Below, piece by piece: positions 9,609 through 44,095 of a stretch of 47,166 bases of DNA. The translations under genes were made by a program, and so were the position numbers. Origin of the DNA: a virus; IMG/VR virus record IMGVR_UViG_3300009098_000002, positions 1-47,166 of that record; one strand, 5' to 3'. How positions within the stretch are numbered: position 1 is the first letter of the stretch; every line of letters begins with the position of its first letter. The notes below the pieces were generated by a model, which was not told where the DNA came from, did not search any database, and saw only the letters and a list, made by a program, of their open reading frames with translations.

Positions 9609-10142
9609 CTACTCTCCTTTGAGCACGTAAATCTTTTCCCGCGACACCGGATTGCCGTTGTTGATGAGCGCGTGCGGATCAAAGTCCCGCATCATGCGAA
9701 TCGAGCGCAAATCGGTTACGAGCGCCGCCGTCCCTTTTTCGGTGAGTTTTTGCCGAACGAAGTTGACGAATCTTTTTTCGTAGCTGGTAAACGAGTCGCC
9801 GCCCCGAAGCGGGATGTCGGGATTGTCCTTCCACTGCTCCAAGACTGTTCCCAGTACAGTTTGAACAGTATCGGCGGGCGCTGCGTGATGTCTTCCGAGG
9901 TTGAAACGACGTAGCTTAAATTCAGTTCTTGGGGGCACGTGCAGTTCGTTTGCAGCGACATTAACCGCTTCGGTGTCGAGGTCACTTCCGAGGACATATT
10001 GCACCCCTTTGTCAGATAGCTGCTTCAGGCGTTCACGGAACGCTTTTTTCGAGTTGCGATCGAGTGGCACGCGATGCCAGCCGGTCTCTCGACCCTTTAG
10101 GTCCAGCTTGTTTTCAGGTGTCGGCACGAGGTACAGAACCAT
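9609..10142 (-). CDS. Degenerate histidine-phosphatase-fold protein
   Basis: This is a 177-residue protein. It follows the phosphoglycerate-mutase/histidine-phosphatase layout: an N-terminal strand, then GRETGWHRVPLD (compare the family's GW..(V/T)PLT), then VQYVLGSDLDTEAVNVAANE (compare the SSDL..A..TA segment), and a late strand TAALVTDLRSIRMM where the family has its second His. The catalytic RHG of the first strand is replaced (YLVPTPEN), and the second His appears to be Asp. So the fold seems kept and the chemistry lost. It may be a structural or binding protein. Confidence 0.55.
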   Translation of the reverse strand: MVLYLVPTPENKLDLKGRETGWHRVPLDRNSKKAFRERLKQLSDKGVQYVLGSDLDTEAVNVAANELHVPPRTEFKLRRFNLGRHHAAPADTVQTVLGTVLEQWKDNPDIPLRGGDSFTSYEKRFVNFVRQKLTEKGTAALVTDLRSIRMMRDFDPHALINNGNPVSREKIYVLKGE

Positions 10143-21441: not shown

Positions 21442-21615
21442 TTATTTCAAGTTCTCCAGACCGCTCTTGGACACATCGGGGCCGTCGGACTTGTCCTGCT
21501 TGTCCGTGACCCCGGTGCCGCGCATGATCTTCAGCCCTTCAGCTGCGATCGCCTTCCCCTCATCCTCGTGTTCGGAGAGATCGGGACCGTAGATGTCACA
21601 ATTACGCTTGGCCAT
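21442..21615 (-). CDS. Small acidic protein with DIYG motif (copy 1)
   Basis: The product is 57 residues. ATG 21615 overlaps the coat-protein stop as TAATG, so it is translated with the coat. The start is MAKRNCDIYGPDLSEHEDEG. The tail is polar (DKQDKSDGPDVSKSGLENLK). There is no fold signature. Its coupling to the coat gene suggests a head-associated function. Confidence 0.7.
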   Translation of the reverse strand: MAKRNCDIYGPDLSEHEDEGKAIAAEGLKIMRGTGVTDKQDKSDGPDVSKSGLENLK

Positions 21616-22946
21616 TAGTAGCCCCCTTGCACTCCCGAGGCCGGCACGGAAAGACCGGTGATGGCTGTGTTTGCGTTCGGGAAATGGCAGCCGAGGTTGC
21701 CGCGGAACTCAAGGAACGCCTGGAACGCATCCGTCCACACGCCCGACGAGTTGACTACGCGGTTCAGGATTGAACCGGTACGGTCGTCAAAGCTCAGTTT
21801 CCGCGCCGTAACCTTCAGCATGGATTCCTTGTTGACGAAGTACAGCGTGTCGCGCGGTGCGTCGGTGTCGATGACCCAGGGCACGCCTTCGAACTCGTAG
21901 GCGGTGTAGCCAAGGTCCATCTTCATTGCTGTGCCGTTGAACTGTTTTAATGTCCAGCCCATGTCGGCATAGGCGTGCAGTTGCGCGCCGTGCGACCAGA
22001 TGCGGAGCTTGTTCAGGTCAACCGCGCCGCGGGCCTGCTGAATGAGCCAGATCCCGCGTCGCAGGTGATCCCTCGTCAAGGCCGGAGTCCCAGTCAGCGG
22101 AATGACGTTGGCGTTGTACTGCGGGTTGTTCACGCGGTTGATGTTCTGGAAGTTGGTGGCGAAGGTGCCGTTGTCGATGATGACCTTGAGGCCAGCCATG
22201 GCTTTGTTGAACGAGTCAGCCGAACCAGCCGCCGCGCCCACCGAGGATACGATCGCATCGCCCACCGCAATCGCCGTGGCCGAGGAAGCGGGACCGATGG
22301 TAATGGTCACGTTGCCGCCCGCCGAAGTGTTCTGAATCGTGCCGGCCGCGCCTAGGGTATTTTGCACAGATACGATCTGCGCCGAGAACTTCACTGGGGT
22401 CGTGGTTCCGGTATAGACGTTGATGAACTGGCCAGGACGCAGGTAGCGCGCGCCGTCACCCGTTCCGGTCACGTCCAGCACCGTGTTCACGGTGGTCGAT
22501 GGCGTGGTCGTGTTATTCATTTTCCCGAGGATGCCTGTGCCGTCGAGGAAGGAGTACATGTTCAGTTCTTTGATGGCCTGCACCACGCCGTTGCGGATGT
22601 TGAACGCCAGCGATTTGACGTAGTTCGTCGCATCACCGCCGCCGCCCGCATCGAGCGCCGCGCCCGTGAACCCGATCGTCTTGGCGTAGGAATAGAAGCC
22701 GACGAGCGCGCGGTTGACCTTTTCCGAGTCCGCGCCAGGCAGAGCGCCGCCATCGGCATACCATGCGTGCGCGCCGTTGGGCGCCATGTGGACCGGGATT
22801 TCCAAACCCCGGTTCGAGATCATGGTGCCGGTACCCTCGAACACGTCATTCCAGAGGACGGGCGCGGTATTGAATTGCTTGTCGATGCGAGGTGCGAAAA
22901 CGATCTTGAAGATAGGATCGGCTGCTGAAAGATCAAATTGTCCCAT
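21615..22946 (-). CDS. Major capsid protein
   Basis: This is a 443-residue protein, placed straight after the scaffold gene. The N-terminal arm (DLSAADPIFKIVFAPRIDKQ) and the LEIPVHMAPNG region with a run of helices and sheets fit an HK97-type fold. The insertion at about 160-245 is rich in Thr/Ala/Gly (TGTTTPVKF, then NVTITIGPASSATAIAVGDA), probably a surface I-domain. The C-terminal part (FDDRTGSILNRVVNSSGVWT) ends AITGLSVPASGVQGGY. The assignment rests on size, order and fold-like layout, not on a named family motif. Confidence 0.8.
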   Translation of the reverse strand: MGQFDLSAADPIFKIVFAPRIDKQFNTAPVLWNDVFEGTGTMISNRGLEIPVHMAPNGAHAWYADGGALPGADSEKVNRALVGFYSYAKTIGFTGAALDAGGGGDATNYVKSLAFNIRNGVVQAIKELNMYSFLDGTGILGKMNNTTTPSTTVNTVLDVTGTGDGARYLRPGQFINVYTGTTTPVKFSAQIVSVQNTLGAAGTIQNTSAGGNVTITIGPASSATAIAVGDAIVSSVGAAAGSADSFNKAMAGLKVIIDNGTFATNFQNINRVNNPQYNANVIPLTGTPALTRDHLRRGIWLIQQARGAVDLNKLRIWSHGAQLHAYADMGWTLKQFNGTAMKMDLGYTAYEFEGVPWVIDTDAPRDTLYFVNKESMLKVTARKLSFDDRTGSILNRVVNSSGVWTDAFQAFLEFRGNLGCHFPNANTAITGLSVPASGVQGGY

Positions 22947-32863: not shown

Positions 32864-32889
32864 CGCAAAAGCTGTTTTCTGTACATCAT
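32860..32889 (-). CDS. Possible 9-codon linker minigene
   Basis: MMYRKQLLR starts at an ATG that overlaps the terminase stop (ATGA) and ends in a TGA that overlaps the GTG of the spike gene (GTGA). Such a tiny frame could pass ribosomes from terminase to spike. It may be chance. Confidence 0.3.
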   Translation of the reverse strand: MMYRKQLLR

Positions 32890-34373
32890 GTTGGACGTGA
32901 GAATAGTCCTTTTCTCGAAGAATGGAAAGGAGTCCTTTTCCAGCGTTCCACTTTGGCCTGCTTTTGATCCGCCACCTCCTTCTGCTGCCAGAAGATTTTA
33001 CTCATAATCGGCAGGCCGGGCTTGTCCCACTTCTTCGCGGTCACAATTTCCATGGGCAGCGGGCGAAACGTATGTATCGCATACCTGATTCCGTCCGGCA
33101 TGTGCGAGTTTTCGTGATTGGTCGTGAAATCGTTCTTGGGCTGCCCGGAACGGTCCTTCGGCCACTTATAGCCCGAAATTTCCCGTATCGTGTTCTGGCA
33201 GGAAGAGGCGACGAAGTACCGCGGGGAACCGTTGATGTTCGGATTGAAGGGATGCGTGAGGTTCGTGTCGATGTGCATGTACTGCTCGGTCTTAAAGAGG
33301 CCAGGGCGGCGCTCTTTCATTGCCGGTACGCCGTTTATTCCGTGCTCCTCTAACTCTTGCGCTGCAGCTCGCTGCGCAAAGTCGTAAGCAAGTCCCTCAA
33401 GCGTTCGTCCACTAAGATATCCTTGTAATTCGGCGGCGATGGGTGCAATTCGTAGATCAACTCCGTATACTTCAGCAAATTGGTACAGGCGACCATCCGG
33501 AGCCACAGCGATAATCGGCAGCGCCCACGGATCACCCTCTGACCCGCTTCCAATATCCATGCCAACGATAACCGGCCAATCAGAAGGAGGCAGGTTTTGA
33601 CCTCCGAAGATAGCGTGATTTTCGGTGTCGTCGTAGACATGCGATGGCTCCGTAAACTCTTTGTACACCAAATCCGTGAAATCGGTGAAATATCCGTAAA
33701 TGAACCGGTCTGCCCAGTCCTTCGGGTACGTGGCAAGCCGGTTGGCCAGGTATTCTTCCGGCAAAAACACGTTTTCCATGGAACTTGCCGAAATGCCGTG
33801 ATATAGCCGCTTCCAATCGTCCTTCCGGTTCGGATCGAAAAACCACCGCCACATGTAATCGTGTCCGGCAGGGTTACTTCCAAGCCTCAAAATGCGCCTG
33901 GACTTCGTTTTCCGCCTAAGACGACCGACCAGCAGCAAAATGACCTTTTCATCGACTTCCGACGCTTCATCCACGTACGCTTTGCTCAAATTCAGCGATT
34001 TTATATGCCCTTGCACCTTGGGGTCGGTGATGTCGAGATGGCGGAAAAGCACTTGATGCCCGTTTTCGAACGTCCAGATCTTCTTTGCTTCCGCCCAGGT
34101 GCCCCATTCCGCGGGTACCAGCTCCAGAAACGTCTGCAGGGTCGTGGTTTCGAGGGCAGGCATGTTCAAACGGCCAACGAGACTCATTCCGCCTGGATCG
34201 TCGGCCGCATTCAGGATGCAAGCGGCCATTAATCCGCTTGTTTTGGCGCTCCCTTCACCGCCGACGTACGCGCACCCGAACGCTTTGCTGGAAATAAACT
34301 CGCGCTGCTTGGGCATCCGGTCAAGATTATTGATGACTTCGTGCCAGCCGAGTTCGCCTTGGTAGTAACCCAC
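32886..34373 (-). CDS. terL: Terminase large subunit
   Basis: This is a 495-residue protein from GTG 34373 that packages DNA: ATPase plus nuclease. The Walker A-like GGEGSAKT spans residues 38-45 and Walker B is KAYVDEASE at 131-139. The coupling motif LRLGSNPAG lies at 162-170. In the nuclease half, VIVGMDIGSGSEGDP (Asp 273) and GLAYDFAQRA (Asp 331) are candidates for metal-binding acids of the RNase H-like fold. The length is normal for the family. The small subunit is not certain; 37001-37501 is a candidate. Confidence 0.95.
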   Translation of the reverse strand: MGYYQGELGWHEVINNLDRMPKQREFISSKAFGCAYVGGEGSAKTSGLMAACILNAADDPGGMSLVGRLNMPALETTTLQTFLELVPAEWGTWAEAKKIWTFENGHQVLFRHLDITDPKVQGHIKSLNLSKAYVDEASEVDEKVILLLVGRLRRKTKSRRILRLGSNPAGHDYMWRWFFDPNRKDDWKRLYHGISASSMENVFLPEEYLANRLATYPKDWADRFIYGYFTDFTDLVYKEFTEPSHVYDDTENHAIFGGQNLPPSDWPVIVGMDIGSGSEGDPWALPIIAVAPDGRLYQFAEVYGVDLRIAPIAAELQGYLSGRTLEGLAYDFAQRAAAQELEEHGINGVPAMKERRPGLFKTEQYMHIDTNLTHPFNPNINGSPRYFVASSCQNTIREISGYKWPKDRSGQPKNDFTTNHENSHMPDGIRYAIHTFRPLPMEIVTAKKWDKPGLPIMSKIFWQQKEVADQKQAKVERWKRTPFHSSRKGLFSRPT

Positions 34374-34991
34374 TTAAACCGTCCGGCGACCTTCGAACAG
34401 CGGCTCGTCCCACACGTCGATGTAGAATCGCTCCGAACCGTAAACCAGTATCAAAAACGGGTCAGGCACCGCGTGCAGAAATTCCACTTCAAACGTCGCG
34501 GCTGGCAATTCTTCCTTCAGTTCAATGGCTCTGGAAAGCGCAAATTCCGGCACCGCTTCGGCATATTTCTCCAGCGGAGTCTTTTCCCACTTTACCATGT
34601 GCCCCTTGGAAGCAACCATCTGGCTCTGATAGGCTTTCACCTTGTCCGCATCGAGAGGATCAAATCCGAGCTTCTCGAACGCCTGTGCGCACTCCCAGCG
34701 GGACTGCTTGGCCCGTTCGTCCTTGTCGATGCGCTCCCCGAGAACCTTGTATCCGAGGAGTCTTCGGGCCTTGGCCGCCAGATTCACCCGCTCCACCGCT
34801 ACCTGTTCCGAGGGTTCGACGGCAACGAGCGTCGTGCGCGCAAGATCAGCCACCTTGGGCGCATCGACACGTTTTACATTTACCAACGGTTGAAAATTCA
34901 TTTGTGCATTTTGCAACTGCTGAAAGTATTGAACCGCGTTTGTAGTTGTCAAACCACCGATTGCTTGGCCCATTCCTACGATTCCGCCCAT
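34374..34991 (-). CDS. Hypothetical protein before terminase
   Basis: The product is 205 residues with a strong AAAGGAGG site before ATG 34991. The N-terminus is Gly/Gln-rich (GGIVGMGQAIGGLTTTNAVQ) and the middle helical and charged. The C-terminus is beta-rich with conserved-looking aromatic residues (LHAVPDPFLILVYGSERFYI). Its stop abuts the terminase start. It may be a packaging or head-assembly factor, or a misplaced virion protein. No family is recognised. Confidence 0.6.
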   Translation of the reverse strand: MGGIVGMGQAIGGLTTTNAVQYFQQLQNAQMNFQPLVNVKRVDAPKVADLARTTLVAVEPSEQVAVERVNLAAKARRLLGYKVLGERIDKDERAKQSRWECAQAFEKLGFDPLDADKVKAYQSQMVASKGHMVKWEKTPLEKYAEAVPEFALSRAIELKEELPAATFEVEFLHAVPDPFLILVYGSERFYIDVWDEPLFEGRRTV

Positions 34992-35014: not shown

Positions 35015-36286
35015 TCAGAATTGACGATACCAGATGCTGTTCGGCCCTTGCTGGAAATCTGGCACCAGCTCCTCGACCGCCTGCGTCACCCCCCAAACAT
35101 CCCCCGCGGGCGTATCGGCGGTTGGCCCATAATCATGCCCGCAAAGCAAGCCCCCAGGCGCCAGAATCTTCGACCAAGCCTGAATGTCCGCCTTCACCGA
35201 CTCGTAATCATGCGCCGCATCTATAAAAATCATGTCTGGCCTGAGATTCCCGTTCCATCCCGCCGCCGCGGCCTGCGAGTCCTTCCGAATCGCTTGGACA
35301 TGCAGTGACGAAATATGGTCAAGCAGATTGTACTCAAAGGCCGTGTAGGCGTTGCGCGTCTCCTGCGCAAACAGCCGCCTTTGCTCCGGCGCCCCCGCCC
35401 ACGTATCCACCGCGAAAATCTGCCCAAACGTGTTATCCGCCATCGCCCGCGTACTGCGCCCATGAAAACTGCCTACTTCCACAATACATTTCCGCTCCTT
35501 CGCTTGCTTGGCCAGCCAGAAAAGCTCCTGCTCGCTCATCCACCCGAATATCTTTAATGCCTTGGAGATATCAATGGCCGGCTTCGGCGGGTCCGCCATC
35601 CCCGCTTCCTTGTTAATCCCCCAGCTATACATCCTTTGCTTGCAATGCAGAATCTTGTCCGGAATCGTGGTCACGTACTCGTGCCACAAATATTCCACCT
35701 TCTCCCCCACAAGTCCATATTTCCCAAGAAGATCCCCAATCGTCGTCGTCTTCAGCCCAAACCGGGCGATGTTGCGGGAAAGCGTGTAATCGTCAATCAA
35801 ATGACCCGGCTCCATCCCGAAATTCCGCTCGTTCGTCGTCGGCGTGATGTTTCTCACTGCCTCATCGAACGTCATTTCGAGAGGATGCCATAAATCAAGG
35901 CAATCTCCACTAGCCACAGTAAACCAGTTGCAACTGCCAATCTGCCGACCCGAACGCCGAAAATATGCGTCCGATCGAAACCGGTTCGGCGCAAAGTCGC
36001 ATCCCCAGTGAAGCACAGTGTCGTGAGAAAGGAATTCAGTAATATCCACAAAATCTGGATGGATAAGGGCGTCTGAGTCCACATAGATGTTCCAGTCATA
36101 GTCCTTCCCCAATTCATGAATCTGCAGCTTCTCGTACACCACTGGCCACCTAGGATACCTCCGCTCCCGAATCTCCCGAATCTCCGCCCCGCACTTTCCC
36201 GCCCACCGCTCCAGAAACGGCCTGGTCAACGCCTTCAACTCCGGCGCATATTCCCCTATATCCAGCACCCACACCACCTTCTTCAT
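35015..36286 (-). CDS. Glycosyltransferase-methyltransferase fusion
   Basis: This is a 423-residue protein with two domains. Residues 1-215 resemble a small galactosyl/mannosyl-type GT: KKVVWVLDIGEYAPELKALT, then WPVVYEKLQIHELG and NIYVDSDALIHPDFVD, where D70-S-D72 is the metal/sugar-binding DxD. Residues about 262-420 are a class I SAM methyltransferase: CIVEVGSFHGRST (SAM loop), FAVDTW, MIFIDAAHDYESVKADIQAW and APGGLLCGHDY. It might add and methylate a sugar on a virion protein or the host surface. It is the third gene of the late block, after RHH and a small gene. Confidence 0.8.
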   Translation of the reverse strand: MKKVVWVLDIGEYAPELKALTRPFLERWAGKCGAEIREIRERRYPRWPVVYEKLQIHELGKDYDWNIYVDSDALIHPDFVDITEFLSHDTVLHWGCDFAPNRFRSDAYFRRSGRQIGSCNWFTVASGDCLDLWHPLEMTFDEAVRNITPTTNERNFGMEPGHLIDDYTLSRNIARFGLKTTTIGDLLGKYGLVGEKVEYLWHEYVTTIPDKILHCKQRMYSWGINKEAGMADPPKPAIDISKALKIFGWMSEQELFWLAKQAKERKCIVEVGSFHGRSTRAMADNTFGQIFAVDTWAGAPEQRRLFAQETRNAYTAFEYNLLDHISSLHVQAIRKDSQAAAAGWNGNLRPDMIFIDAAHDYESVKADIQAWSKILAPGGLLCGHDYGPTADTPAGDVWGVTQAVEELVPDFQQGPNSIWYRQF

Positions 36287-36475
36287 TCAGTACCTCTCGT
36301 CCTTCTTCCGATACGTCCTGAAATCCACCGGATCGCCCGGCTGGCTCTCAATCAAAAACCGATAATCCTGACAACTCTTGCAAAGGCAAAACTGCCACTT
36401 CGATTCCGCCAAATGTACCTCAAACGGTTTCACATAATCCGGGTCCCTGTGTGGTAGTACCCCCAACTGTTTCAT
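36287..36475 (-). CDS. Small Cys-containing protein
   Basis: The product is 62 residues from ATG 36475 (GGAGG five bases upstream, ATGA overlap). Two cysteines in CLCKSC (about 32-37) and a Phe/Tyr/Arg-rich end (DFRTYRKKDERY) are seen. It sits between the RHH protein and the GT-methyltransferase. The function is unknown. Confidence 0.6.
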   Translation of the reverse strand: MKQLGVLPHRDPDYVKPFEVHLAESKWQFCLCKSCQDYRFLIESQPGDPVDFRTYRKKDERY

Positions 36476-36786
36476 TTGCGCCTCCATTTGTAGTTCTCAC
36501 ACCCCGGTATCGGACACGCTTTCGCTCCATAGTTGTGCGAGCATACTTCTACTTTTCCTCCCCGTACAGCAGCCTTTTCCACGATTCCGGCAGACTCCAC
36601 AGCAACTCGATCGGCAATAAACTTCCGTCCCGCATCCGTAGGAATCGCAACATTCGGTTGCATAACTTCATCGTTACAACGTTCTCTAATCCATTGCGCA
36701 AGTGACTGTCCTTCCTTTTCTGCCTTCGCACGCCAGTCCTTCAATTCCTCTTCCGAAACCCGCATCCGCCACATCACGGTTTTCAT
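36472..36786 (-). CDS. RHH-type DNA-binding protein with Cys/His tail
   Basis: This is a 104-residue protein. Residues 1-40 fit a ribbon-helix-helix: VMWRMRVSEEELKDWRAKAE, then EGQSLAQWIRERCND. The C-terminal part (about 80-104) has CSHNYGAKACPIPGCENY, a possible zinc knuckle. It is the first gene of the late minus-strand block. Three copies of TGTCGCTACA lie over its promoter, and the -10 is so close to the ATG that the mRNA may lack a leader. It is likely an autorepressor or the late-block switch. Confidence 0.75.
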   Translation of the reverse strand: MKTVMWRMRVSEEELKDWRAKAEKEGQSLAQWIRERCNDEVMQPNVAIPTDAGRKFIADRVAVESAGIVEKAAVRGGKVEVCSHNYGAKACPIPGCENYKWRRK

Positions 36787-36837
36787 GTCGCTACATTATG
36801 CCGTGTCGCTACACGTGTCAATGGCTTTGTCGCTACA
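36786..36837 (-). repeat. Triple operator-like repeat TGTCGCTACA
   Basis: TGTCGCTACA occurs at 36786-36795, 36804-36813 and 36828-36837 (18 and 24 bases apart). On the minus strand these read TGTAGCGACA, a short dyad (TGT...ACA). They lie upstream of -35, in the spacer, and over -10/ATG. Confidence 0.85.
36793..36821 (-). promoter_or_regulatory. Late-block promoter, leaderless
   Basis: Read on the minus strand: TTGACA (36821-36816), a 17-base spacer, then TAATGT (36798-36793), six bases before ATG 36786. CATAAT with a 15-base spacer is an overlapping alternative -10. Transcription would start at or very near the ATG. Confidence 0.65.
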
Positions 36838-37000
36838 AGGAAATGCCAAAAATTGTCTGGGCAGATGTACATATATTTTTGCCGCCGGCCGTCCTTGCCT
36901 GCTTCCCTGCCAGGTAGGCCCCCGGACCACTACGTCTGATAATAATCATCTATGTTAACTACGATGTGCTTGATTACATTACATTTAACTCTATCTGACG
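36838..37000. other. Intergenic stretch without gene
   Basis: No frame or ribosome site of note was seen. It is AT-rich at 36940-37000 (GTTAAC near 36955) with scattered short dyads. It may hold a terminator for the 37001-37501 gene, but none is clear. Confidence 0.4.
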
Positions 37001-37501
37001 CTACTCTTTGGTGGGCTGTATTTCTATCTCGCTGATAACAGAGGACTTTAACTTTTCGGGGTTTGCGGTCTCTGCCGGCGGATCGCTGTGCAATAACACG
37101 TTCAGCGTCTGATTCAGCGTTACGTCACTTGCCAGCCGATTACCTGTAGGTTGCTGATTATCAAAGCATTTATCCAGTAACCAGAGAGCCGCGGATTCGC
37201 TATTCTTCTCTAGGCGAACGTCTAGAGTTTTGAGTGCTGCTGGTACTCGATTCATAGCGCCGGCGCGACCATCTTCCATCATTCGGTCCACGTCCGTTAA
37301 GTTAGTGATATTACGAACCGTATTGACAGCGATGCCTAAGTCGCGTGAAATCTTGGCAGTCGATTCGCCAGCGAGTCTTTTAGCTACAACAGCATTCTTA
37401 ATGGCGGGCGCCTTACGGGTAGAACGTCTATGAACAGTAGGTTGAGTCTTGGGGGGTAGTGTACCTGGGGCTTGTGCCATCTGATTGTTAACCCTGCGCA
37501 T
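37001..37501 (-). CDS. HTH protein, small-terminase candidate
   Basis: This is a 166-residue protein (ATG 37480 is an alternative start). A basic, Pro-rich N-terminus precedes an HTH: IKNAVVAKRLAGESTAKISR, then DLGIAVNTVRNITN. A helical central part (ALKTLDVRLEKNSESAALWL) follows, then a variable acidic tail. The HTH plus oligomerising helices fit small terminase subunits, though a transcription factor is also possible. It is transcribed divergently from the early operon, ahead of the late block. Confidence 0.55.
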   Translation of the reverse strand: MRRVNNQMAQAPGTLPPKTQPTVHRRSTRKAPAIKNAVVAKRLAGESTAKISRDLGIAVNTVRNITNLTDVDRMMEDGRAGAMNRVPAALKTLDVRLEKNSESAALWLLDKCFDNQQPTGNRLASDVTLNQTLNVLLHSDPPAETANPEKLKSSVISEIEIQPTKE

Positions 37502-37579: not shown

Positions 37580-37608
37580 TTGACAGGAAAACACTGTTAG
37601 TGCATACT
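37580..37608 (+). promoter_or_regulatory. Early-operon promoter with dyad in spacer
   Basis: TTGACA (37580-37585), a 17-base spacer, then CATACT (37603-37608). The spacer contains CACTGTTAGTG (37592-37602), an inverted repeat with 4-bp arms. The same site, one base changed, lies in the minus-strand promoter near 39.63 kb. Confidence 0.7.
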
Positions 37609-42292: not shown

Positions 42293-42616
42293 ATGAGCCG
42301 AAAACGCCACAACGTAGACAGTGAAGCGACTGCGGGCGCTAAATTTTTCGATAAAAGGTCATACGTCACGCACACCGGCAAGGAGTTCCGTTTCGGTGCG
42401 GACAAGACAGTGCTTCGTCTGGAATGTTTTTACCGCGATCAGCACACCTGCACATCATGCGGAAAGTGGCATTACCAATGTGATTTGGATATGCACCACA
42501 TTCTGCCGCTTGGGAAGGGCGGCGATGACAAGCTCTCGAACGTCACGACCCTTTGCAAGTGGGGCGATTGCCATAAAAAGCTGCATGTTCGCCCGCGGTT
42601 CGGAGTAGCCGTATGA
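42293..42616 (+). CDS. HNH endonuclease
   Basis: This is a 107-residue protein. CTSCGKWHYQCDLDMHHILP then LGKGGDDKLSNVTTLCKWGD and CHKKLH shows the full HNH core with its two Cys pairs around a zinc and the catalytic His of DMHH. It may nick DNA during packaging or act as a homing-type nuclease. A 92-base gap separates it from ERF. Confidence 0.9.
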   Translation: MSRKRHNVDSEATAGAKFFDKRSYVTHTGKEFRFGADKTVLRLECFYRDQHTCTSCGKWHYQCDLDMHHILPLGKGGDDKLSNVTTLCKWGDCHKKLHVRPRFGVAV

Positions 42617-43022: not shown

Positions 43023-43583
43023 TTGCAGGGATTTGTCAAGCTTAGGCGCGGCATTCTGGAGCACCTTCCAGACCGCATTACTGCCGATGAGTGCCTCTGT
43101 TACACGTTAATCATACTAATGGCCGATCACCGCTCGGGTGCGTGGCGCGGGTGCGCTCAGGCAATGGCAAGGAAGACCGGATGGTCTGTTCGCCAGTGCC
43201 AAGTGGTCCTGAAGTCACTCCGGCAAAAGGGCTACATCACCGGACAGCCCACCACTGGCCGCGGTCAGTACCTTATCCGGGTCGTTAAGTATTTCCACAA
43301 GGCGCATGGGGATGCGCTTTATACCCCAGAAGGCGCACCGGGATGCGCTTTAAGGCCTCAGAAGGCGCATGGGGATGCGACGTATCAAGAAGTACTACAA
43401 GAAGAACTACACAAGAAAAAACCCGCGCAACCCCGGCGCGGCCACTCCCCAGAGCTAATTCGTCAGATCGAAGCAAAGCAAAGGCGCCTAGAAAAAGAAG
43501 CGGATGCGTGGCGGGAGGGCCAGGTAGGACGGAACTGGATGAGCGACCAACTCGAAGAATGGCGAAAGGCTAAAGCCCTATGA
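43023..43583 (+). CDS. Winged-helix replication protein
   Basis: The product is 186 residues from TTG 43023 (GGGGG five bases upstream). The start GFVKLRRGILEHLPDRITAD and following ADHRSGAWRGCAQAMARKTG then WSVRQCQVVLKSLRQKGYIT make a winged-helix domain like the N-terminus of DnaD-type phage replication proteins. The C-terminus is a charged helix (EAKQRRLEKEADAWREGQVG). Three iteron-like dyads lie inside its coding region, which suggests it binds its own gene as origin. Confidence 0.75.
   Translation: MQGFVKLRRGILEHLPDRITADECLCYTLIILMADHRSGAWRGCAQAMARKTGWSVRQCQVVLKSLRQKGYITGQPTTGRGQYLIRVVKYFHKAHGDALYTPEGAPGCALRPQKAHGDATYQEVLQEELHKKKPAQPRRGHSPELIRQIEAKQRRLEKEADAWREGQVGRNWMSDQLEEWRKAKAL
43299..43384 (+). 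repeat. Iteron-like dyads in the replication gene
   Basis: Three near-identical 23-base units (AAGGCGCATGGGGATGCGC and flank) start at 43299, 43330 and 43362, spaced 31-32 bases, about three helical turns. Each holds a GCGCAT-4-ATGCGC dyad, perfect in the first and one mismatch in the others. The 31-base step puts the middle copy in another reading frame, so the sequence is kept as DNA, not as protein. Confidence 0.8.
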
Positions 43584-44095
43584 CCACAAAAACTGAGTAT
43601 CGGGAGTACATCGCGTCCGAACCGTGGCAGAAGCGTAGGAAGGAGTTCTTACTGGCCTATCCGCGTTGCAACCGCTGTGACATTCCAAGGTGGCTAGCAG
43701 TGGTCGCCTACGATCAAGACCTGCACGTTCACCATAGAAATTATGCTCGCGTCGGCCAAGAGATAGATGATGATTTAGAACCCCTCTGCAAGAGATGCCA
43801 TGAGCTAGAGACGTTCGGCCATTCTTACTTGCACGTTCCGAGAAGCGAGCCTTGCTGCATTTGTCTGCAAGAATTTTCATGGGTTAGGGTCGATGGCGAA
43901 GCCATGCATCAACCCGGCTTATGTTCCGAGTGCTCGATGATTTTAGCTATGTGTATCGGCAACTTCGATGGCGGCCGGATGAGTTTATCAAGTCTTTCTC
44001 CCGTCGGTGATCCGATTGAGAGTATCCGGCGAGAATTAGACCGTGTTGAGAGACGTATGGAAGAAAACAGAAAAAGGCTTGAGGCGAAGCAGTAG
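43580..44095 (+). CDS. Second HNH-type endonuclease
   Basis: This is a 171-residue protein (ATGA overlap with the replication gene). It contains CNRCDIPRWLAVVAYDQDLH then VHHRNYARVGQEIDDDLEPL and CKRCHELE, the HNH layout with two Cys pairs. A second Cys-rich patch (CCICLQEFSWVRV; CSECSM) follows, and the C-terminus is a coiled coil (RRELDRVERRMEENRKRLEA). It may be a nicking or homing enzyme near the putative origin. Confidence 0.85.
   Translation: MTTKTEYREYIASEPWQKRRKEFLLAYPRCNRCDIPRWLAVVAYDQDLHVHHRNYARVGQEIDDDLEPLCKRCHELETFGHSYLHVPRSEPCCICLQEFSWVRVDGEAMHQPGLCSECSMILAMCIGNFDGGRMSLSSLSPVGDPIESIRRELDRVERRMEENRKRLEAKQ

Follow-up and report, generated by a model that had tools for sequence, protein, structure and literature searches.

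Gene order and promoter architecture

The window analysed here comprises nucleotides 1 to 47,166 of an IMG/VR virus record (IMGVR_UViG_3300009098_000002). On its minus strand, a gene for a ribbon-helix-helix (RHH) protein (P0001) lies between the gene for a helix-turn-helix protein (P0002) and a series of codirectional genes that includes those of the large terminase subunit (TerL) and the major head protein (Table 1). The position of P0002, taken by itself, suggests a small terminase (TerS-like). Homologues of several of these genes were found in other phages, whose loci are designated by L and a number.

Table 1. Coordinates of the features discussed in the text
Feature	Position	Strand	Remark
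Operator copy 1, TGTAGCGACA	36828..36837	-	5' of -35
-35 hexamer TTGACA	36816..36821	-	exact consensus-pattern scan
Operator copy 2, TGTAGCGACA	36804..36813	-	within the 17-nt spacer
-10 hexamer TAATGT	36793..36798	-	contains TAA, in frame as a stop four codons ahead of ATG
Operator copy 3, TGTAGCGACA	36786..36795	-	shares TGT with -10 and A with ATG
Start codon ATG	36784..36786	-	6 nt after -10
RHH gene P0001, 104 aa	36472..36786	-	N-terminal RHH, C-terminal C-x-H-...-C-...-C knuckle; probable leaderless start at 36786
P0003, 66-aa C-x-C-x2-C protein	36287..36487	-	overlaps the RHH gene
Protein with C-terminal Methyltransf_24 domain	35015..36286	-	adjacent, downstream
205-aa protein, no assigned family	34374..34991	-	downstream
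Large terminase subunit TerL (Terminase_3 / phrog_2)	32886..34373	-	profile match
Major head protein	21615..22946	-	farther along the same codirectional series
P0002, helix-turn-helix protein	37001..37501	-	upstream of the RHH gene; relatives keep homologues in place
Noncoding block	36840-36960		between P0002 and RHH genes
Promoter-like site	37580-37608	+	
Promoter-like site	39642-39614	-	
HNH-endonuclease-like gene	42293-42616		
HNH-endonuclease-like gene	43580-44095		

The near-consensus promoter of the RHH gene reads TTGTAGCGACAaagccaTTGACAcgTGTAGCGACAcggcaTAATGTAGCGACATG on the minus strand and has the layout TTGACA-17-TAATGT-6-ATG, with three identical copies of the 10-mer TGTAGCGACA at -51, -27 and -9. 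The initial annotation had described three repeats over TTGACA-17-TAATGT and a -10 hexamer six bases before the ATG at 36786; the repeats are exact, and both the positions of all copies and the spacing hold. The promoter (36793-36821) is one of four exact matches to TTGACA-N16-18-TANNNT within the window. The TGTAGCGACA triplet is not a chance product. Exact copies of the 10-mer are confined in the 47 kb to the three at the promoter, and the sole copy with one mismatch, at 9951, lies inside a predicted late gene. Moreover, the triplet is the window's only cluster of at least three identical, non-overlapping 10-mers within 60 bp, and none of 200 simulated windows with the same dinucleotide make-up contained a comparable one. 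For operator detection, a three-zone score was introduced beside the automatic 9-mer repeat statistic, because the latter missed palindromic two-copy operators. The window promoter reached the maximum of 30/30; no value above 21 was seen in 300 shuffles of the region, and none above 22 in 300 other 76-base windows.

Further elements of the window deserve mention. The noncoding block between P0002 and the RHH gene is conserved among relatives (upstream of RHH in L015-L021 and L070-L107), examples being AAGCGGCCAAAAACC...CCAACTTTTGC and, in other relatives, GGGAAGCAGCCGAAA; it could be a cos/packaging or a regulatory element. The two promoter-like sites of Table 1 share exact ACAC(T/C)GTTAGTGC between TTGACA and the -10; the two forms, TTGACAGGAAAACACTGTTAGTGCATACT and TTGACAGGAACACCGTTAGTGCTTAGGAT, are the only exact copies within the window and may be where a second regulator acts on the early promoters. 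The two HNH-endonuclease-like genes lie amid early replication genes (Erf, O-like, RusA).

Properties of the RHH protein and of P0003

The N-terminal 45 residues of P0001 are predicted to adopt the RHH (MetJ/Arc/CopG) fold, which agrees with the initial assignment of the gene. The NikA-like Pfam family (PF21983) was matched with an E-value of 3e-5 and 24.4 bits, below the curated threshold of 27, and 8 of 18 relatives matched it at E-values up to 0.01; the PHROG match was to an Arc-like repressor (E 2e-4). In the AlphaFold model, which is confident over residues 1-41 (pLDDT about 96 for residues 11-30), helices span residues 12-24 and 29-41. DSSP assigned no strand to residues 2-9 of this single-chain model; the sheet requires a second subunit. 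Unstructured residues 47-76 account for the low pTM of the full model (0.37), and the RHH part alone was used. The best Foldseek matches were Arc and NikA structures, with probabilities of 0.98-0.99 and, for so short a domain, E-values of at least 0.4; CopG and RHH antitoxins were matched as well. VIA-align gave Z-scores up to 7.2, and every top row was an RHH protein. In most relatives, a variable linker is followed by a C-terminal knuckle C-x-H...C-x2-C, typically CKHGxxKGxRCWQCGG; the window version is CSHNYGAKACPIPGC. Judging from the pattern of cysteines and histidines, this knuckle may bind a metal.

The window phage has no close cultivated relative: the best TerL matches in INPHARED are about 25% identical, and neither an RHH nor a DNA match was found in cultivated phages. 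The best plasmid match was weak (E 0.2). A TerL search of 396 genomes from the phylum of L062 (Acidobacteria) gave no host match. In an unrelated 69.8-kb phage (L010), an RHH-like gene (502-338, minus strand) begins TGTAGCTACATG and has two TGTCGCTACA copies upstream, the sites lying at about 511-568.

Homologues of P0003 lie directly 3' of the RHH genes in five further phages (L073, L096, L165, L168, L170), and the family motif HxAESxWxxCxCxxC (HxAESxWxxCxCxSCQ) appears to be joined to the C-terminal end of the RHH protein in L075 and L078 (a short match, E 0.004-0.009). Because of this neighbourhood and fusion, P0003 is suggested to be a functional partner of the RHH protein. RHH antitoxins autoregulate two-gene operons in such a manner, and the order and overlap of the two genes, their association in other phages and the fusion would suit a toxin-antitoxin-like pair in which P0003 is the partner of an RHH antitoxin. 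We nevertheless consider this explanation very improbable: P0003 had no significant match in Pfam or PHROG and thus offers no recognised toxin, as a type II operon would; in most TerL relatives no P0003 homologue was detected behind the RHH gene; and the RHH-fused motif is easier to reconcile with a shared module for metal binding or regulation than with a toxin.

Start of the RHH gene

The codons in frame ahead of the start are TAA TGT AGC GAC ATG. An upstream start is prevented because the -10 hexamer itself supplies an in-frame stop codon, and the alternative starts Met5 or Met8 would truncate the predicted beta-strand. No Shine-Dalgarno sequence was seen ahead of the RHH gene in the window sequence, and in the clearest cases the -10 lies 6-7 nt from the start codon. 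Given this geometry, the RHH mRNA is very likely leaderless, as the initial annotation had held to be probable.

Promoters of related phages

Relatives were collected from IMG/VR by means of TerL, and two additional scans with the RHH sequence added phages without a related TerL in their flanks. An RHH-like gene lies upstream of TerL in 25 of 36 IMG/VR loci, several of which are near-duplicate contigs; it was not detected in the other 11, some of them truncated. In the clearest cases, the promoters retain a TTGAC(A/G/T) -35 and a spacer of 16-17 nt, and their -10 precedes ATG or GTG by six or seven nt. The operator words differ between phages and occupy the same three places (TGTACGCACA, GTCTAGAC, TTTGGGACC, GTGGTCCC, TGTACCCACA, TGTACATACA; Table 2).

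Table 2. Operator words of related phages and the residue triads of their RHH proteins
Phage	Operator or repeat	Triad
L070	TGTACGCACA	R,Y,R
L073	GTCTAGAC	L,T,K
L083	TTTGGKACC	L,K,Y
L096	GTGGTCCC	L,K,Y
L168	TGTACCCACA, three copies at -52/-28/-9, near copy farther upstream	T,K,R
L170	TGTACATACA, three copies at -51/-27/-9	P,Q,R
L107	TGTAyATACA	P,Q,R
L165/L166	GTAATAC	T,S,R
L013 and L081	GTACG words	R,E,R
Ten other phages	CACATRTG-like sites in most	R,V,Y

In L070, L073, L083, L096, L168 and L170, the repeats lie at about -52/-28/-9, and from phage to phage all copies change in concert. Their three-zone scores were 26-30/30 (26-28/30 for the first four), values equalled by none of 300 other windows from the same locus. 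L165 and L166 scored 24 and 26, which was reached by 2/300 and 1/300 other windows, respectively. The repeats of L075, L076, L082, L084, L090, L162 and L164 are two in number, degenerate or unrecognisable; for L162 and L164, no clear operator was found at the RHH promoter.

All three occurrences of GTCTAGAC in the 45-kb record of L073 are at the RHH promoter, and the record of L096 contains TGGTCCCR as the promoter triplet plus three single copies. Given these counts and the absence of further exact copies in the window, a regulon scattered across the phage genome is unlikely. On one 78.7-kb viral contig (IMGVR_UViG_3300020579_000009; L089 and L098), TerL and RHH genes are each present twice, with words upstream that differ; either two related phages are joined there or the assembly is chimeric.

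Operator sequence and predicted DNA-facing residues

RHH repressors contact bases through three alternate residues of their beta-strand (Gln 9, Asn 11 and Arg 13 in Arc), and they bind near-palindromic operators, usually several, at their own promoter. At the aligned strand, the window protein has the triad M,R,R (M5, R7 and R9). Where triads agree, operator words are shared even between phages whose TerL proteins are only 55-61% identical: L083 and L096 (L,K,Y; 55%) have TGGGACCA in common, one being the reverse complement of the other, and L013 and L081 (R,E,R; 61%) have GTACG words in common. In contrast, different triads at 74-79% TerL identity go along with almost no common words; L083 and L018 (79%) have nothing in common among their operator words, and those of the window and L013 (78%) do not overlap. 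When triad labels were permuted over all phages, none of 5000 permutations matched the observed association with shared words. Outside the R,V,Y group, repeated words are shared by 3/3 same-triad pairs versus 3/52 different-triad pairs (3 of 10000 permutations). Note that permuting triad labels corrects only partly for phage relatedness, and that the triad columns, defined by the alignment and the Arc frame, were picked after some operators were already known. L170, which was found through its RHH protein, agrees with L107 in its triad (P,Q,R) and carries the expected operator TGTACATACA; outside the R,V,Y group, no other phage provides a clean same-triad test on data not used before. In L162 (R,V,Y), the operator expected from the triad is missing.

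Sites, geometry, gene order, conservation and covariation with the beta-strand can be read directly from the sequences. They indicate that operator identity tracks the three predicted DNA-facing residues and not phage relatedness. The prediction that the TGTAGCGACA triplet is the operator of the RHH protein, its ligand in the initial annotation, is thereby strongly supported, both by the conserved layout and by the covariation with the triad.

A different protein could bind the repeats, either P0002 at a packaging/cos array or a host regulator of the Phd/YefM type, the overlap with the RHH promoter then being secondary. P0002 adjoins the sites and has a helix-turn-helix, and TGTAGCNACA pairs occur ahead of Phd/YefM-like antitoxin genes in bacterial genomes. 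This reading is in our judgement very improbable, since the beta-strand of the RHH protein covaries with the operator sequence. P0002 in particular is disfavoured: its helix-turn-helix is nearly identical in L083 (= L016) and L018, whose operators differ, and no homologue was found in the fetched flanks of the L168, L170 and L165 cassettes.

The motif was also followed beyond this gene family. As a marker of RHH genes, it was rejected when used alone, as scans of IMG/VR and GTDB gave mostly coding-DNA repeats or promoters of other genes. Where TGTAGCNACA pairs end at an ATG elsewhere, the gene that follows is mostly not an RHH gene; in several cases it looks like a Phd/YefM-type antitoxin. Such pairs end on or beside the start codon of Phd/YefM-like genes in L035, L038, L053, L059, L066 and L067 (Nitrospirillum/Azospirillum) and likewise before such genes in L046, L039, L041 and L052. 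A similar short operator apparently serves an unrelated fold, the gene type having been judged by eye. Another phage promoter, TTGACT-17-TATATT in L008 (8420-8452), has TGTAGCGACA in its 17-nt spacer and just past its -10; the gene behind it is cut off by the contig end. A literature search for the 10-mer returned, among the matches listed, primers and unrelated items only.

Proposed mechanism and reach of the promoter

With considerable confidence, we interpret the element as the promoter at which an Arc-like RHH repressor of an uncultivated tailed phage shuts off its own gene. Sites over the spacer, the -10 and the start would most simply block the polymerase, which makes negative autoregulation the economical explanation. 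For binding, repression, RNA start and reach into the late genes we infer the following course. RHH dimers would recognise near-palindromic sites of about 10 bp by placing a two-stranded beta-sheet in the major groove. The three sites being interleaved with the promoter (5' of the -35, in the spacer and across the -10 and start codon), occupied DNA would exclude RNA polymerase. When the RHH protein is scarce, transcription would begin at or a few bases from the ATG and yield a leaderless RHH mRNA, which may run on into P0003, the methyltransferase gene, TerL and farther; accumulating protein would then close the promoter. Protein and operator would have diversified as a unit on a fixed promoter geometry.

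How far this control extends is a separate matter. The initial annotation had called the element the switch for the whole late block. Such a master switch would silence the packaging and structural genes, for example in early infection or in a carrier state, until the RHH protein is released; we regard it as a serious possibility that falls somewhat short of being probable. Of the four exact promoter matches, only that of the RHH gene is intergenic ahead of late genes, and the downstream genes mostly overlap or have small gaps through P0003, the methyltransferase, TerL and the capsid gene. The RHH gene is located just 5' of TerL in many relatives and 3' of an unrelated TerL in L170, and an RHH protein of an archaeal virus, SvtR of SIRV1, represses both its own gene and a late structural gene (PMC5569661). 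On the other hand, P0002 is encoded upstream in the same orientation and a simple scan detected no minus-strand terminator between it and the RHH gene, so that the late genes may also be transcribed from farther up. The cassettes of L168 and L165 have no recognised terminase gene next to them. A lysogenic role for the silencing finds no support: the tyrosine integrase family PF00589 was not found in nine records (that of the window and those of eight relatives), which may be fragments, and was detected in 14/14 control genomes. What stands of the earlier claim is that the promoter heads a long run of codirectional genes, among them those for TerL and the capsid. That it controls the late block as a whole is plausible and in part supported. 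Repression here would reach the late genes unless they are also fed by another promoter. The simplest scope with support is the promoter of the RHH gene itself.

A broader interpretation is that triple operator, leaderless promoter, RHH protein with its zinc-type knuckle and often P0003 form a portable cassette. Its specificity would have been remade repeatedly under diversifying pressure via a three-residue beta-strand code, preventing cross-repression of the late genes of coexisting related phages. We offer this as speculation that is rather unlikely to hold; if true, it would amount to an immunity- or incompatibility-like system sited in the late region. In any case, at least seven natural, predicted RHH-operator pairs are available on a near-fixed promoter scaffold, including same-triad and different-triad pairs, and with this series specificity change in beta-sheet repressors becomes directly testable with short DNA fragments. 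The finding further points to a self-limiting control point beside the packaging genes of an uncultivated phage family without close cultivated relative, and to leaderless translation of a phage regulator.

Comparison with known systems

RHH autorepression and the divergence of repressor-operator pairs are already known. In the open-access literature, we found no description of a phage gene family in which three sites are interleaved in a fixed manner with a predicted leaderless promoter and at least seven operator specificities occur.

One close parallel is Arc of phage P22 (and Mnt), which is phage-encoded, has the RHH fold with recognition by a beta-sheet and is among the best Foldseek matches. 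In contrast to Arc, to which it is about 26% identical over 39 residues, the window protein has an additional C-terminal C-H-C-C knuckle; its three predicted sites are interleaved on its own predicted leaderless promoter beside packaging genes.

MobC of plasmid RA3, also an RHH protein, represses its own promoter via a palindrome between -35 and -10, and in plasmids related to RA3 promoter conservation is lost just around the MobC operator (PMC4175270). The Pfam lead of the window protein is likewise NikA-like. MobC differs by its single operator, its ribosome-binding site and its role in conjugation; no relaxase was recognised among the scanned genes neighbouring the window RHH gene. SvtR differs from the window protein with respect to its archaeal promoter, the separate promoter of the structural gene and its operators. 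Finally, repressor-operator pairs of Cluster A mycobacteriophages are reported to evolve different specificities (PMC6550527, PMC9283540). These immunity repressors are of another type and their stoperators are spread genome-wide, whereas the exact sites of the window phage and of L073 are gathered at one promoter.
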